Virus record (IMG/VR): IMGVR_UViG_3300023174_006445
Span: 1-21,265 of that record
Direction: 5' to 3' (one strand)
Source: a virus
DNA: 21,265 nt
Made by a program: the position numbers and the translations under genes. Of the stretch, positions 5,728 through 19,590 are shown piece by piece (the first letter of the stretch is position 1; each line of letters opens with the position of its first letter). Under the pieces are notes generated by a model that was not told the DNA's origin, made no database searches, and saw only the letters and a list, made by a program, of their open reading frames with translations.

Positions 5728-6756
5728 ATGGAAATTTGTATTAGGTGTGGAAACGATTTTGATATAAGTATGATATCTAAAAAATATTTAGATAAAAATC
5801 CAGAACAATATAAATCTTGTTCTTATTGCCGTAAATATAGAAAATGTTTGAATTGTGAAAAAGAGTTTCACCATAAACAGAATCAAACTTGCTCTAAAAA
5901 ATGTGCCCAGGAATTAAAAGAAAAATCTTGGTTAATTTCTTGTGGTGCAATACATAACTTTTCAAAAGATTCAACTTCCAGAAAAGATTGGGAGAGTAAA
6001 TTACTAAATGAGGAAGGTATTACAAATGTTTTTCAAAGAAAAGAAGTTAAAGAAAAATCCAAAATTACTTGTATACAAAAATATGGAGAAGAGAAATATT
6101 CTTTAACTAATGAATGTAAAGAAAAAATTAAAAAAACTAGCTTAAAAAAATATGGTGTTGAAAACTATAGCAAAACTGAAGAATGGTTAAAATCTTTTAA
6201 AGAAACTAATTTAGAAAAATATGGAGTTGAAAATCATACACAAAATAAAGAAATAAAAGAAAAAATTAAAAAAACTAATCTTGATAAATATGGTGTATAT
6301 ACTTTATTTTTATTAAAAGATTTTCGTGAAGAAAGTATGATGAATAAATATGGAGTTCCTTATGCTTCTCAATTAGAATCGGTTAAGAAAAAAATTAAAG
6401 AAACAAGAAGTTCCAAAGATTTCATATATAAAATGATTGAAAAAGGTTATTTCTTAGATCCTCAAAAATTATCAGAAAAAGAATTATATTATCATTTAGT
6501 AAAACAGGAAACCAAAAATTCACTAAAAAATTATGGAGAAAATGTTTTTGGAAAAAATTGGCAAGATACGATTGGTAGAAAAGAAAATCATATCGATCAT
6601 ATTTATTCAATAAACGAAGGATTTAAAAATTGTATATTACCACATATAATAGGTTCGATTAATAATTTAAGAATAATACCTTTTATTAATAATTGTATTA
6701 AACAAAATAGATGTGATATTACATTAGAGGAATTGTTAGAAAAGATAAATCAATAA
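5728..6756 (+). CDS. HNH homing-type endonuclease with zinc-binding N-terminus and KYG repeats
   Basis: This looks like a free-standing selfish endonuclease. The N-terminus has paired cysteines (C4/C7, C31/C34, C40/C43, C55/C59), suggesting two zinc-binding modules. Residues 105-225 hold five copies of a repeat with the core KYGVEN (KYG at 118, 141, 164, 187 and 207, mostly 23 residues apart), each followed by a Lys-rich helix such as KEKIKKT. Similar repeats occur in phage HNH proteins and probably contact DNA. The C-terminus has an HNH nuclease motif: HIDHIYSINEGF (288-299), then NNLRIIPFINN (312-322). It lies between the two topoisomerase subunit genes, a location favoured by homing genes in T4-like phages. 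Its last 7 nt overlap the convergent gene 6750-7118. It has a TATATAAAATAAAA element upstream and no clear Shine-Dalgarno. Confidence 0.88.
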   Translation: MEICIRCGNDFDISMISKKYLDKNPEQYKSCSYCRKYRKCLNCEKEFHHKQNQTCSKKCAQELKEKSWLISCGAIHNFSKDSTSRKDWESKLLNEEGITNVFQRKEVKEKSKITCIQKYGEEKYSLTNECKEKIKKTSLKKYGVENYSKTEEWLKSFKETNLEKYGVENHTQNKEIKEKIKKTNLDKYGVYTLFLLKDFREESMMNKYGVPYASQLESVKKKIKETRSSKDFIYKMIEKGYFLDPQKLSEKELYYHLVKQETKNSLKNYGENVFGKNWQDTIGRKENHIDHIYSINEGFKNCILPHIIGSINNLRIIPFINNCIKQNRCDITLEELLEKINQ

Positions 6757-10008: not shown

Positions 10009-10509
10009 TTATATTATAACGTCATCTGGATTCCAATAAGGCTTTGGATTTTCTCTTAAATCCAACATTCTTCTCTCATAATCTTCGATTTGTTCATAAG
10101 TTAACCATTCTGGTTTTACTGGTAATTTTTCCCATGTTTCTTTCATTTTGGCAATATGTTCTTCGATGTTCTTCGTAAAAAGAACATTTTCCGAACCATT
10201 TCCATAATGCAAAAAATACTCACAATCATTTCTTAATCTATCAAGAAACATATAATTAAATTTATCATTATTCGTTTCATAATTTTCATTTACAAATGAT
10301 TCAAAAGATTTAATCTTTTTTTCTTTTGTTGAAAGGAATTTTTCACCATCTAATGTTTTATTATTCGGTTTAGATATTTTACCTTTGTCAGGTGTATCTG
10401 CTAAAAACTCCTCACCATCCATTTTTGGTTGTGTTTTTGTTAAAGGCTTAGCAGCTTTTGCATCTATGTTAGATAGAGATTGTTCTGGTTTTAATTTTTT
10501 ATTTTGCAT
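10009..10509 (-). CDS. Hypothetical protein, 166 aa, with an internal capsid-targeting-like motif
   Basis: No enzyme family recognised. Two short repeats, DGEEFL (31-36) and DGEKFL (54-59), lie in a Lys- and Pro-rich, probably unstructured N-terminus. Residues 65-76 read KIKSFESFVNEN, which closely resembles the leader found at the starts of the neighbouring proteins (MK..K.FE...). The C-terminal 90 residues are charged and contain KPEWLTYEQIEDYERRML. The gene is last in a four-gene minus-strand cluster and overlaps the preceding gene by 11 nt. The placement of the leader motif suggests either an extended N-terminus upstream of an old start, or a cleavable propeptide with a longer leader. Virion location is inference. 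Confidence 0.75.
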   Translation of the reverse strand: MQNKKLKPEQSLSNIDAKAAKPLTKTQPKMDGEEFLADTPDKGKISKPNNKTLDGEKFLSTKEKKIKSFESFVNENYETNNDKFNYMFLDRLRNDCEYFLHYGNGSENVLFTKNIEEHIAKMKETWEKLPVKPEWLTYEQIEDYERRMLDLRENPKPYWNPDDVII

Positions 10510-10741
10510 TTATATATTTATTTATTTTTTCAAGAGCGGTTTTTAATTCTAATTCTGATAAATTAATTGAATTAATTTTTTTAGCAATTATAGAATCAAG
10601 TAAATCAATAATTATATCATTTAATAAATGTTCCTTACCTTCTAAATGTAAACGATTTGTTTTAATTTTCATAACTATATCCTGCAATTCAGAGATATTT
10701 TCCATTTTTTCAAACAATTGATTATACTTAAATATTTTCAT
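10499..10741 (-). CDS. Small protein with LFE leader, 80 aa
   Basis: It begins MKIFKYNQLFEKMEN, so it carries a short positively charged leader ending in LFE, as its neighbours do. The remaining 65 residues are helical and Leu/Ile/Lys-rich, with no recognised domain. It starts 3 nt after the gene at 10745-11188 and overlaps the next gene by 11 nt, so translation is probably coupled. In T4, small internal proteins of this size with such leaders are packaged in the head and trimmed by the prohead protease after L/I-x-E. The same fate is inferred here. Confidence 0.7.
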   Translation of the reverse strand: MKIFKYNQLFEKMENISELQDIVMKIKTNRLHLEGKEHLLNDIIIDLLDSIIAKKINSINLSELELKTALEKINKYINAK

Positions 10742-10744
10742 AGT

Positions 10745-11188
10745 TTATATATTAATTTGATAGTCTGAATTTCCTTTTAAAACTTTAGAAAGTAATTCTT
10801 TATTTTCTAAATTTTCTACAAAATTAATAAATGAATCTAATAATTCCATTACTTCGTCCAATTCCATTAAATTATAATCTAATTTATCATGTATTTTCTG
10901 AAAATCACCCATAACAATATCAGATTCATATCTATCAACTAAATTCCAAACTTCATCAATAATTTTATTAATAGATTTTTTTTGTAATTCTAAATTGTTT
11001 AATAATTGTTTATATCGTTTTACATCATCATACACATCTTTTATTGTAATTGCTGTTATGTTAATAATATGTTTAGTTATTTCTATTTCTATTTTTTTAG
11101 AAATTTTTGTATATTTATCAACTAATTCTTGTTTTTGTTCCGGTGATAATTTCCAATCACTATTTTCAAAAAATTTTATGTATTTCAT
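10745..11188 (-). CDS. Helical protein with FFE leader, 147 aa
   Basis: The N-terminus MKYIKFFENSDWKLS has the leader pattern of the cluster, with FFE in place of LFE. The rest looks like a long helical bundle or coiled coil (heptad-like spacing of Leu and Ile from about residue 20 to 140), is highly charged and has no Cys. No family recognised. It follows the 11205-11969 gene by 16 nt on the same strand. A role as an internal head protein or scaffold component would fit its leader and shape, but nothing in the sequence proves it. Confidence 0.75.
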   Translation of the reverse strand: MKYIKFFENSDWKLSPEQKQELVDKYTKISKKIEIEITKHIINITAITIKDVYDDVKRYKQLLNNLELQKKSINKIIDEVWNLVDRYESDIVMGDFQKIHDKLDYNLMELDEVMELLDSFINFVENLENKELLSKVLKGNSDYQINI

Positions 11189-11204
11189 TATTTTAAAATT
11201 ATTT

Positions 11205-11969
11205 TTAAGATCCAGTTATTGTATCATAACCATTATTTATAGCATATTTGGCAATTTTAACTAAATCATCTATATATGTATTATCATCAGAATGTGAAGC
11301 ACCACTATAAAAGCGAATATTGCCTGTATTTTGGATTGAATCAATTGGTTCTGATTTATTGTTTTTAGCAGAATCAGATCGGTTTATAATTTCTTTGGCT
11401 GGTATATTAAATACAAAATCATCGGCATCTATATCAAATCCCATTTTTCTTAAAATTCTTTGGGCAGTTGAATTGCTAACATTTAATTGCGTTGTTTCTT
11501 TTTCAATATCATTATTATTTTCACGAATTGGAATTCTAATAACTCTTATTGTATCAATTGGTTGTCCTTTTTGATAGTGAACTATTAATTTTTTTGAACT
11601 ATAAACCTCAGCAGTTAATTTACCTAACACAAGTTTATTATTTTTAGCAAATTCTTGAACTGCTCTAATAATTTTTTCTAATTGTTCTCTTGTTTCTACA
11701 CCTGGATATAAATTAACTATTCCAGTTCTTTCAAATGCATACACGCCATCAGGAGTAAATTCTGCTTCATCGTAAGATTTAATTAAATTTTTATTAGCAA
11801 GATAAGATTTAAATGCATAAGATATGTGTAATAAATTATCCAATTCAGGTTTATAAACTGAGATAAGATTGCCTTTATCATCTATCATATTTTGCTTGCC
11901 ATAATCCTTGATTGAAAAAGTTATACTTTCATTTAAATTCCAATTTTCAAATAATTTTAAATACTTCAT
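11205..11969 (-). CDS. Hypothetical protein with LFE leader, 254 aa
   Basis: It starts MKYLKLFENWNLNES, the clearest example of the short leader with the L-F-E motif that T4-type prohead proteases cut behind. After the leader come mixed alpha/beta sequence and, around 125-215, segments such as LVLGKLTAEVYSSKKLIVHY and IRVIRIPIREN that look like beta strands. No catalytic motif was recognised. It is first in the minus-strand cluster and diverges from the exonuclease gene across 50 nt of AT-rich DNA. No host-type promoter is visible in that gap, so transcription by a phage-modified polymerase is likely. Confidence 0.75.
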   Translation of the reverse strand: MKYLKLFENWNLNESITFSIKDYGKQNMIDDKGNLISVYKPELDNLLHISYAFKSYLANKNLIKSYDEAEFTPDGVYAFERTGIVNLYPGVETREQLEKIIRAVQEFAKNNKLVLGKLTAEVYSSKKLIVHYQKGQPIDTIRVIRIPIRENNNDIEKETTQLNVSNSTAQRILRKMGFDIDADDFVFNIPAKEIINRSDSAKNNKSEPIDSIQNTGNIRFYSGASHSDDNTYIDDLVKIAKYAINNGYDTITGS

Positions 11970-12019
11970 AATGTATATATTTTTTAAACTAAATCAAAAA
12001 TTAAAAATATAATCGTATT

Positions 12020-14025: not shown

Positions 14026-14751
14026 ATGCAAGAAAATAATTTAACACAAACCGAAATTGTGGTAGTTTTAGACCGTTCTGGCTCTATGGGCTCAATAGCT
14101 AAAGCAACAGTAGAAGGATTTAATACCTTTCTTAATGAACAAAAAAATGCTGAAGGTGAAGCCTATCTTACTTTGGTTCAATTTGATGACAGATATGAAG
14201 TTAATTATAAATCCGTACCTATTAAAGATGTTCCAGAATTAATTAATGGGGAAACATATATACCTCGTGCAACCACTGCTCTTTTTGATTCAATTGGTAA
14301 AACAATAAATGAATTACAAACTGATAGAGATGTAGTGTTTGTAATTATAACAGATGGACATGAAAATGCTTCAAAAGAATTTAAACAAGAAGCAATTAAA
14401 AATATGATAGAAACATTGGAAAAAGAAAATAATTGGAAATTTTTATTTTTAGCTGCTAATCAAGATGCAGTGACTACTGGTCGTTCGATTGGAGTTAAAA
14501 GTTCTAATAGTATGAGTTGGGCGGCTAGTGCTGATGGTGTTGGTAATACTTTCGTGTCTATGAGTGCTAATATAGGTTCTTATCGCAAAGCTAAAACATC
14601 TTATGATTCATATGTAGCAGAAAATTCAGATAAAAACATTAATTATGCTGATTATATGGCAGAAGCTAGTTTACAAAGCTTATCATTTTCGGATAAACAA
14701 AGAGACAAATCTATGGATAAAAAAGAAGATAAAACAGATAAAAATGCATAA
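14026..14751 (+). CDS. VWA-domain protein
   Basis: A single von Willebrand factor A domain fills residues 8 to about 160. The metal-ion-dependent adhesion site is complete: DRSGSM (Asp16, Ser18, Ser20), the Thr in PRATTALFD (Thr83/84) and ITDGHENAS (Asp110). The C-terminus is a charged, Lys/Asp-rich tail. There is no signal peptide, so the protein is cytoplasmic. VWA domains mediate metal-dependent protein contacts, often in complexes with AAA+ ATPases, but none is encoded next to it. The QTEIVVVLDRSGSMGSIAKATVEGFNTF type is common in large phages, where its role is unknown. A degraded reading frame begins inside its last codons. A TATATA-type element precedes it, so it probably starts a new transcription unit. 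Confidence 0.9.
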   Translation: MQENNLTQTEIVVVLDRSGSMGSIAKATVEGFNTFLNEQKNAEGEAYLTLVQFDDRYEVNYKSVPIKDVPELINGETYIPRATTALFDSIGKTINELQTDRDVVFVIITDGHENASKEFKQEAIKNMIETLEKENNWKFLFLAANQDAVTTGRSIGVKSSNSMSWAASADGVGNTFVSMSANIGSYRKAKTSYDSYVAENSDKNINYADYMAEASLQSLSFSDKQRDKSMDKKEDKTDKNA

Positions 14752-16966: not shown

Positions 16967-17887
16967 TTAAATATAATCAGTTCTATATTTAAATAATGCT
17001 ATATCTTTCATCTTGCATTCCAATTCAACATCTACGTCTATACCAAAATTTTCAAATTTTTCGTATAAAAAATCAGTATGCGTTTGAATAGTTGTTAAAT
17101 TATCTTCATGTAATTTTCTAGAAGAAGAATGATGACATAATGGCTTTATATCACCCCATGTTGAAATTGCTAATTTAAATGATTCTTCCCAAGTATAACC
17201 GCCAGAATGACAAGAATGATGCAAAGAATCAGCAATAATTGGAATTCCAATTTGCTTATGAACCAATCTATACAAATCTTGAACGGTATATTGTGCCTGT
17301 TTGTCATCATTTTCAACCGTTAATCTTTTTTTCGTTGTTTCATTTAGTAACCAAAAAGAGTTACAAAATCTTTGTGCAGCATCTTCTAATGTTGGTTTAG
17401 TTGTATTCAAATGTATATTAATTGAATAATATGTATTTGCAGGCAATCCCATTAAATCTAACATTTGTGAATGCTTATTTAACTCATCAATTGATTTTTC
17501 CACAACATCTAAATTCTCGGAAGCCAATACTACATATTGGCCCGGATGACATCCCATTCTTATTTTATTATTTAAAATAAAATCTCCTATATCTTTAAGG
17601 AGTTTTTTTATAATATCCCAATTAGGTAAATCTTCAAGATTATAGTGTGTAAACCATGGAAACATATCGGAACTCATCCTATAAACATAAATGTTATTTT
17701 TAATGTTATATTTCAGAATCTTCAAACAATCTTTTAAATTGAGAATTGATAACTCGGAACAATATTCTAAACCTTTTGCATCAAAAGTTTTTTTAATCAT
17801 TCCACGATTTACCGATATTTCGTCTTTCTTTTTAAGTCCTTCGTTTATTCCAAGGGAAATGCAGCAGTAGCCGATATTAACAGACAT
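16967..17887 (-). CDS. uvsE: UV DNA damage endonuclease
   Basis: The enzyme nicks DNA 5' to UV photoproducts and starts an excision pathway independent of UvrABC. The TIM-barrel family motifs are present in order: RMSSDMFPWFTH (70-81), CHPGQYVVL (113-121, His114), INIHL (156-160, His159), LTVENDD (189-195, Glu192), IADSLHH (218-224), PLCHHS (249-254) and VELECKMKDIAL (287-298). These supply the His/Glu/Asp ligands for the Mn site. At 306 aa it is close to Thermus and Bacillus homologues. It is a single-gene unit that converges on the small basic gene and diverges from the GIY-YIG gene. Phage-encoded versions could repair phage DNA after irradiation before infection or during it. A TATTTTTG box 22 nt upstream of the start may be its promoter -7, though no good -33 is visible. 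Confidence 0.96.
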   Translation of the reverse strand: MSVNIGYCCISLGINEGLKKKDEISVNRGMIKKTFDAKGLEYCSELSILNLKDCLKILKYNIKNNIYVYRMSSDMFPWFTHYNLEDLPNWDIIKKLLKDIGDFILNNKIRMGCHPGQYVVLASENLDVVEKSIDELNKHSQMLDLMGLPANTYYSINIHLNTTKPTLEDAAQRFCNSFWLLNETTKKRLTVENDDKQAQYTVQDLYRLVHKQIGIPIIADSLHHSCHSGGYTWEESFKLAISTWGDIKPLCHHSSSRKLHEDNLTTIQTHTDFLYEKFENFGIDVDVELECKMKDIALFKYRTDYI

Positions 17888-18782: not shown

Positions 18783-18953
18783 ATGAAAACAAGATTAAAC
18801 TTTACAATTGAAGAAAATATTTCGGATGAATTCAAAAAAATATGTAATAATGAATGTATCAACATGTCTAAATTAATAGAAAGATTCATGGAAGATTTTA
18901 TTAAGAAAAACATACAATATAATAATGTAAACAAAAATGATGTTGATAATTAA
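18783..18953 (+). CDS. Ribbon-helix-helix DNA-binding protein, 56 aa
   Basis: The ATG at 18783 opens MKTRLNFTIEENISDEFKKI and the frame ends with TAA at 18951. The pattern is that of Arc/CopG/MetJ-type regulators. A short beta strand (TRLNFTI) would insert in the major groove as a dimer sheet, followed by helix one (SDEFKKICNNE) and, after the NMSK turn, helix two (LIERFMEDFIKK). The length is normal for the fold. It starts 1 nt after the endonuclease stop, so the two are co-translated, and it may repress its own operon, including the nuclease. It overlaps the upstream in-frame extension of the next gene, which supports a later start for that gene. Confidence 0.8.
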   Translation: MKTRLNFTIEENISDEFKKICNNECINMSKLIERFMEDFIKKNIQYNNVNKNDVDN

Positions 18954-18963
18954 TATATACTAT

Positions 18964-19590
18964 ATGAAAATACAGAAATTTCGTGAATATTTAATTTTAG
19001 AAGGTAATAGTCCTGAGGAATACATGGCTAATTTATTAAACCAAATTAAAGCAAAATTAGATCCTATTTTTGATCCTAATAAAGTTAGAACCTTAAAAGA
19101 TTTTAAAAATTCAAATCTTCAACTTATGAATACGCCAGAAGTTGATAATTTTCCTATTACAGCAAGAAGTCTTAAATATAAATTTTCCGATGATGGACAT
19201 AGTGTTTACGAATTAACATTTACTGTAGATTTAAAAGATGCAATTAATCCTAAACCAGATGAAGATTACAAAACTTCGGAAATTAAAAAAGTTCATGTTT
19301 CATTTAAAAAATACACAACAGAAGGAACTTCTTTAAATATGGTTGGACAATTAATGGATAGAACTGTTGCACCAGATGAAATTAATCCTGATTTTTTAAT
19401 TCAATTAAAATTAGATTTAGATGAAGGTAAAACCGAAGCTGATGAAGAGGAAGAATTTAAGATAGAAACTGGTGAAGAAACTTCGCAACCACAATCACAA
19501 GGACAAACTACTCAACAATCAACGCAAGGACAACAACCAGCAGAAGAATCGGAAGAGCAAACTACAACACCAGCACAGGGACAAGAATAA
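18964..19590 (+). CDS. Hypothetical protein with LE leader and Q/T/E-rich tail, 208 aa
   Basis: I place the start at ATG 18964 rather than 18937. The later codon gives MKIQKFREYLILEGNSPEEY, which matches the capsid-targeting-like leaders at 10-12 kb and contains I-L-E, a possible protease step. It also avoids overlap with the ribbon-helix-helix gene. The folded part (about 20-155) looks mainly beta (ITARSLKYKFSDDGHSVYEL, VYELTFTVDL). From about residue 158 the chain is acidic, then low-complexity in Gln, Thr, Glu and Pro with GQ repeats, and should be disordered. No family recognised. The leader suggests a protein packaged in the head, by inference. Confidence 0.75.
   Translation: MKIQKFREYLILEGNSPEEYMANLLNQIKAKLDPIFDPNKVRTLKDFKNSNLQLMNTPEVDNFPITARSLKYKFSDDGHSVYELTFTVDLKDAINPKPDEDYKTSEIKKVHVSFKKYTTEGTSLNMVGQLMDRTVAPDEINPDFLIQLKLDLDEGKTEADEEEEFKIETGEETSQPQSQGQTTQQSTQGQQPAEESEEQTTTPAQGQE

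Follow-up and report, generated by a model that had tools for sequence, protein, structure and literature searches.

Sequence does not normally reveal which proteins travel in a phage head and are injected into the host. In T4, the internal proteins IPI, IPII and IPIII bear an N-terminal targeting sequence (Mullaney and Black 1996; reviewed in PMC9026906). In IPIII, residues 4 and 7 control targeting, and residues 8 and 10 control processing (PMC9026906).

The window analysed here, a whole stretch of 21,265 nt, is part of the genome of a T4-like huge phage. The nearest records to its large topoisomerase subunit are LR756502.1 (W01, 642 kb, 62% identity), LR745206.1 (W02, 635 kb, 62%) and LR756504.1 (W03, 636 kb, 44%). 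Gene order is partly common to the window, W01 (499-511 kb) and W02 (478-494 kb), the genes in shared order being those for the topoisomerase II large subunit, a 5'-3' exonuclease and the orthologues of 18964 and 19605. As these three records carry no annotation, their ORFs were called mechanically and all gene counts are approximate. The window holds neither a protease nor a capsid gene, so the head machinery was read from the relatives only. Elsewhere in the window, the protein encoded at 16967-17887 has a 55% identical relative in W01 (628079-628990) and has the appearance of a UvdE (UV-endonuclease)-like TIM barrel, that at 14026-14751 begins with a VWA-like VVVLDRSGSMG motif and has a W03 relative (39% identity), and that at 5728-6756 is predicted to be homing-endonuclease-like, with KYG repeats and numerous relatives in W01 and W03.

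The features of the window on which the analysis bears are as follows, an arrow marking a candidate site of cleavage:

11974-11981, minus strand: AATATATA, late-promoter-like motif before gene 11205-11969
11205-11969, minus strand: 254-residue ORFan with leader MKYLKLFENWNLNES (leader HMM 15.1 bits)
11946-11969, minus strand: leader MKYLKLFE of gene 11205, with hydrophobic L4 and aromatic F7
10745-11188, minus strand: 147-residue helical ORFan with leader MKYIKFFENSDWKLS (MKYIKFFENS; leader HMM 14.5 bits)
10746-10753, minus strand: AATATATA motif before gene 10499-10741
10499-10741, minus strand: 80-residue ORFan with leader MKIFKYNQLFEKMEN (MKIFKYNQLFE↓K; leader HMM 6.1 bits)
10511-10518, minus strand: AATATATA motif just before gene 10009-10509
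10009-10509, minus strand: 166-residue LPD11 protein with an N-terminal extension of about 75 residues (putative propeptide) and KIKSFESFVNEN inside
10285-10311, minus strand: class A motif K67-SFESFVN-E75, predicted processing site E75↓N76 (PSSM 14.0)
10066-10263, minus strand: LPD11 domain, residues 83-148 (Pfam PF18824, E = 1.3e-28)
18952-18959, plus strand: AATATATA motif before gene 18964-19590
18964-19590, plus strand: 208-residue protein with class A leader MKIQKFREYLILE↓G

A sequence-only reading had ascribed a shared leader to four of these ORFs; all four are present, in tandem on the minus strand, and the gene at 18964, which it had missed, adds a fifth. Four of the five motifs are N-terminal and that of the LPD11 protein is internal (residues 67-75). 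A chance likeness is countered by the scores from a leader HMM, trained on two relatives only: 15.1 bits for 11205 and 14.5 bits for 10745, when at least 14 bits was reached by 4 of 6057 control starts at internal methionines, and these four have the look of genuine leaders preceded by a wrongly called start. The 10499 leader is weak when taken alone, as 46 of the 6057 controls score at least 6 and it scores 6.1. Positions 4 and 7 fit in 11205 and 10745 but at 4 only in 10499 (F4, N7), and in 18964 the F..Y pair is displaced by two. The orthologues of 18964 (W01 500348-500902 and W02 479412-479969) begin MKIRKFTEFINE and MKIRKYIEFITE.

For the 11205 protein no relative was found in viral contigs and no family in Pfam, and its single-sequence structure model was too poor for use (pLDDT 42). 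The single-sequence AlphaFold2 model of the 10745 protein (mean pLDDT 68) gives the leader a helix of its own, of low confidence, at residues 3-8, and its helical body begins at residue 16.

The 10009-10509 protein, for which likewise no relative was found in viral contigs, matches LPD11 (PF18824) with 99.3 bits against a cut-off of 27. Its internal motif KSFESFVNE scores 14.0 on a separate profile, on which about 0.12 such matches would be expected across all window proteins. In relatives from Aeromonas T4-like phages the domain lies at the N-terminus, without the extension. Since KSFESFVNE↓N closes the roughly 75 extra residues, immediately ahead of the domain, the extension is likely to be a long cleavable propeptide.

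The sequence-only reading had also proposed a search of the whole genome for the leader motif. W01-W03 have 194 and 74 leader starts of two forms. The former, MK[YH]-hydrophobic-x-x-aromatic, begin 194 of 2854 ORFs, about 1 being expected from internal methionines; the latter are further ORFs that start with the class A consensus, M-x-KK-[YF]-x-x-F-[IL]-[NK]-E, which is nearly identical to that of T4. With weaker variants added to these two forms, the tagged ORFs number about 141 of 980 (W01), 112 of 941 (W02) and 55 of 933 (W03). A strict leader definition gave 193 ORFs against 15 expected. When all MK[YH] starts were taken unselected (n = 240), a hydrophobic residue stood at position 4 in 224 of them and an aromatic one at position 7 in 196, compared with 22 and 6 of 62 internal MK[YH] occurrences. 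The forms MK[YH][LI]KxYK[IL]FES and MKYLKLFE thus keep positions 4 and 7, with the glutamate at 11 or 8 rather than at 10. The leader codons vary synonymously, which indicates selection on the leader peptide and not on the DNA. Viral contigs contain 94 stretches of DNA that encode class B leaders, and 257 Gb of bacterial and archaeal genomes contain one. Searches of the open-access literature yielded no description of leaders like these from huge phages.

The likeness to T4 was assessed with a position matrix built solely from huge-phage class A leaders. Applied to 278 T4 ORFs, it placed gp61.1 (MKTFKEFIKED), IPIII and IPII (both MKTYQEFIAEA) and the vertex protein gp24 at ranks 1 to 4. Class B and C leaders and the N-termini of the window proteins score lower on this profile (best 7.7). 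The top leader score of all T4 ORFs belongs to gp61.1 (54 residues, MKTFKEFIKEDMVAGDSGG; L244, T4 record, 18966-19130), and it is possible, from this match, that gp61.1 is an unrecognised head-targeted T4 protein.

Head machinery of the T4 type is present in the relatives. W01, W02 and W03 each have an ORF for an S77-like (gp21-like) prohead protease adjoining a gp23-like capsid gene; both matches are distant, and that of the protease falls under the Pfam cut-off. The protease ORF continues into a long scaffold of 14-residue repeats, e.g. KNISYSEYIAENLD, so that in the capsid-protease loci of the three genomes (L016-L017, L051-L053, L087) a single polypeptide combines prohead protease and core scaffold. 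The three protease-scaffold ORFs contain 26 copies of the heptad YxE[FY][ILV]AE, and all other proteins together contain one; this heptad is similar to YQEFIAE, the core of the T4 leader. The capsid prodomains of W01-W03 terminate in INE↓N or IHE↓N and were not flagged by the class A leader profile.

Cleavage after L/I-x-E at LFE, as had been suggested for the window proteins, suits 11205 and 10499 but not 10745, which has FFE, and in 11205 the candidate site LNE↓S (residue 14) is as good as LFE↓N (residue 8). Among class A leaders the ends INE, IKE and LNE are common and fit (L/I)xE, as do the IFE and LFE forms; the LPD11 protein comes close with V-N-E. The commonest leader form (IFE↓S, LFE) has phenylalanine before the glutamate, where the scaffold and capsid sites have A, N or H.

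Known folds are found among the tagged proteins, most of which match no known family. They include a T4-type RNA ligase (1.7e-20), a PPK2 (5.9e-77), a 2H phosphoesterase in W01 (28.4 bits against the Acb1 cut-off of 27), a 2H-plus-exonuclease fusion, an FMN reductase, a DHH protein, methyltransferases and HNH nucleases. In IMG/VR contigs an RNase T-type exonuclease and a DUF2201 metallopeptidase are tagged; tagged metallopeptidase-like proteins of these contigs lie at L192:576-1148 and L138:39-1433 (HExxH-like; DUF2201 with a VWA-like domain). Two other tagged proteins from these contigs are not claimed: one that looks like an ADP-ribosyltransferase was confirmed by neither Pfam nor PDB sequences, and one that looks like a kinase was not confirmed by Pfam. 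Such cargo bears on whether the leaders, if they are head signals, mark proteins that remain part of the particle, in its core or as minor constituents of the capsid, instead of being delivered. Such a leader is also found on gp24, the vertex protein of the T4 capsid, and this reading keeps a real though minor share of the probability. However, RNA ligase, PPK2, 2H phosphoesterase and nuclease folds have no obvious structural use, and the repertoires of W01 and W02 differ widely, as arms-race genes should.

The timing of expression was approached through the sequence AATATATA. Of the 190 strict leader genes, 95 have it in the 45 bp upstream, against 361 of 2412 others (p from 1e-7 to 1e-12 per genome), and so do 4 of the 5 leader genes of the window, against 1 of its 23 others (hypergeometric p = 0.0012). 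Ahead of structural homologues it is common (10 of 15), ahead of replication homologues rare (2 of 38), and permuted versions of it are mostly without comparable enrichment. We infer that it is a late promoter, its distribution being what late, virion-associated genes would show. No TATAAATA occurs in the 60 bp before T4 ipI, ipII and ipIII, so promoter sharing with T4 is not claimed. The distance from the end of AATATATA to the ATG is mostly 0-9 bp in leader genes and about 20-30 bp in structural genes (L005-L112, in W01-W03), and the mRNAs of the leader genes may be leaderless. The company that the motif keeps also counts against a leader that is a short amphipathic helix sending proteins elsewhere in the infected cell, such as to a membrane patch or a replication compartment. 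Membrane-binding helices can indeed be short, basic and amphipathic, like this pattern; but the T4 head signal is matched at its mapped residues, the scaffold repeats are resembled, the promoter-like motif is shared with structural genes and the replication genes are without the leader, which makes such a destination very improbable.

The leader also behaves independently of the protein behind it. The 310 leader-bearing bodies fall into 219 clusters at E<=0.01, of which 182 are singletons and one has 44 members, part of the leader set being a single expanded paralogous family. Among W01-W02 reciprocal best hits the leader is present in both proteins in 16 pairs, in one in 27 and in neither in 401 (Fisher p 8e-14), which shows conservation of its presence between orthologues. 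A methyltransferase has a class A leader in W01 and a class B leader in its W02 orthologue, another orthologous pair has 84% identical bodies and unlike leaders (MKYLRTYEGF and MIIKKYIKFINEE), and in W03 the RNA ligase orthologue and that of a HAD-like protein have no leader at their start. As orthologues swap or lose it, the leader is a module. Homologues of T4 core genes in W01-W03 carry the strict leader on rnlA only (W01 and W02). Very improbable, too, is that the leader is simply the start of one expanded paralogous family, spread with its body by duplication and with no sorting role: many class B proteins do have a weak KDILLELxDDGF stretch in common, 44 of the 310 bodies do form one cluster and leaders are concentrated at one end of W01, but the number of clusters and singletons, the same leader on RNA ligase, PPK2, methyltransferase, exonuclease and metallopeptidase folds, its exchange or absence between orthologues and the reproduction of the T4 signal by class A all stand against it.

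One leader-bearing family has the core GTLGxSCM...GRAILWK...FMDRIY...PYMDT (L018:17650-19161, L022:15131-16663, L032:10224-11447 and relatives). It occupies 7-15 places per huge genome, several members have DnaJ-like zinc-ribbon repeats, and related stretches occur in Cellulophaga phages.

It is very probable that a clade of huge T4-like phages uses the leaders as a portable tag, and that they are T4-type propeptides for capsid targeting. The comparison with T4 leaders made in the sequence-only reading is strongly supported computationally by the match to IPII, IPIII and gp24, the conserved positions 4 and 7, the S77 protease and scaffold of the relatives, the shared late-type promoter motif and the swapping or loss of leaders between orthologues. 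That reading was right at its core and understated in scope, as the tag is a portable one on a large set of proteins. The leader family, its T4 likeness, its modularity and the promoter-like motif, and the protease, scaffold and capsid genes of the relatives, are all observed in the sequence; we infer the packaging, cleavage, injection and host effect of the tagged proteins. The cargo found in the relatives makes injection and anti-host action plausible; for the window genes an anti-host role is a guess from the company in which they are found.

The portable-tag reading suggests the following course of events. Tagged proteins would be made late in infection, alongside the capsid genes. The short amphipathic leader, with its hydrophobic residue 4 and aromatic residue 7, would dock on the prohead core, whose scaffold in the relatives is fused to the S77-type protease and built of leader-like YxEYIAE repeats. 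By imitating the scaffold repeat the leader might dock beside it and be cut by the same enzyme. The protease would cleave after glutamate, at (I/L)xE and probably at looser forms, freeing mature proteins inside the head, and these would accompany the DNA into the next host. Five such cargos would come from the window, encoded by 11205, 10745, 10499, 10009 and 18964.

Whether the huge phages of this clade each encode about 55-140 head-targeted proteins, a delivered arsenal whose leader mimics their own protease-scaffold repeat, is an evenly balanced question. If they do, any protein, RNA-repair and counter-defence enzymes included, becomes cargo on gaining the tag and the injected proteome can be read from the sequence. 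The leader, together with the late-promoter-like motif, would then predict head cargo for dozens of otherwise unknown genes per genome. Candidate injected factors flagged in this way are the tRNA-repair ligase, PPK2, the Acb1-related 2H phosphoesterase, nucleases and methyltransferases, which provide a ranked list for seeking counter-defence proteins in some of the largest phages. It is also proposed that the T4 targeting signal acts through imitation of a scaffold repeat.

Compared with known systems, the LPD11 protein of the window shares with the polyvalent proteins a full match to their LPD11 domain (PF18824); those are large and multidomain, whereas it has 166 residues and, by Pfam, one domain. 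Relative to its counterparts in Aeromonas phages it adds the 75-residue extension ending in a targeting and processing motif. The leaders resemble the targeting sequence of the T4 internal proteins in being N-terminal, about 8-13 residues long and begun by MK, in having hydrophobic or aromatic residues at 4 and 7 and in ending with glutamate, the class A core [YF]xxF[IL]xE being the T4 YQEFIAE pattern, and the relatives also have an S77-type protease. Unlike T4, which has a handful of leader bearers, the huge phages have about 55-140 per genome; many bearers have the commoner forms MK[YH][LI]KxYK[IL]FES and MKYLKLFE, which are absent among T4's top matches; the cargo includes large known enzymes; and protease and scaffold are fused, gp21 and gp22 being separate in T4. 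For the huge phages packaging is a prediction. The ejection-protein propeptides of SPN3US and phiKZ (PMC5694885) offer a second parallel, a large phage with many head-packaged, protease-processed proteins, but most of those propeptides exceed 100 residues and their sites are of the A/S-x-E type, whereas the leaders described here are short and of the T4 type.
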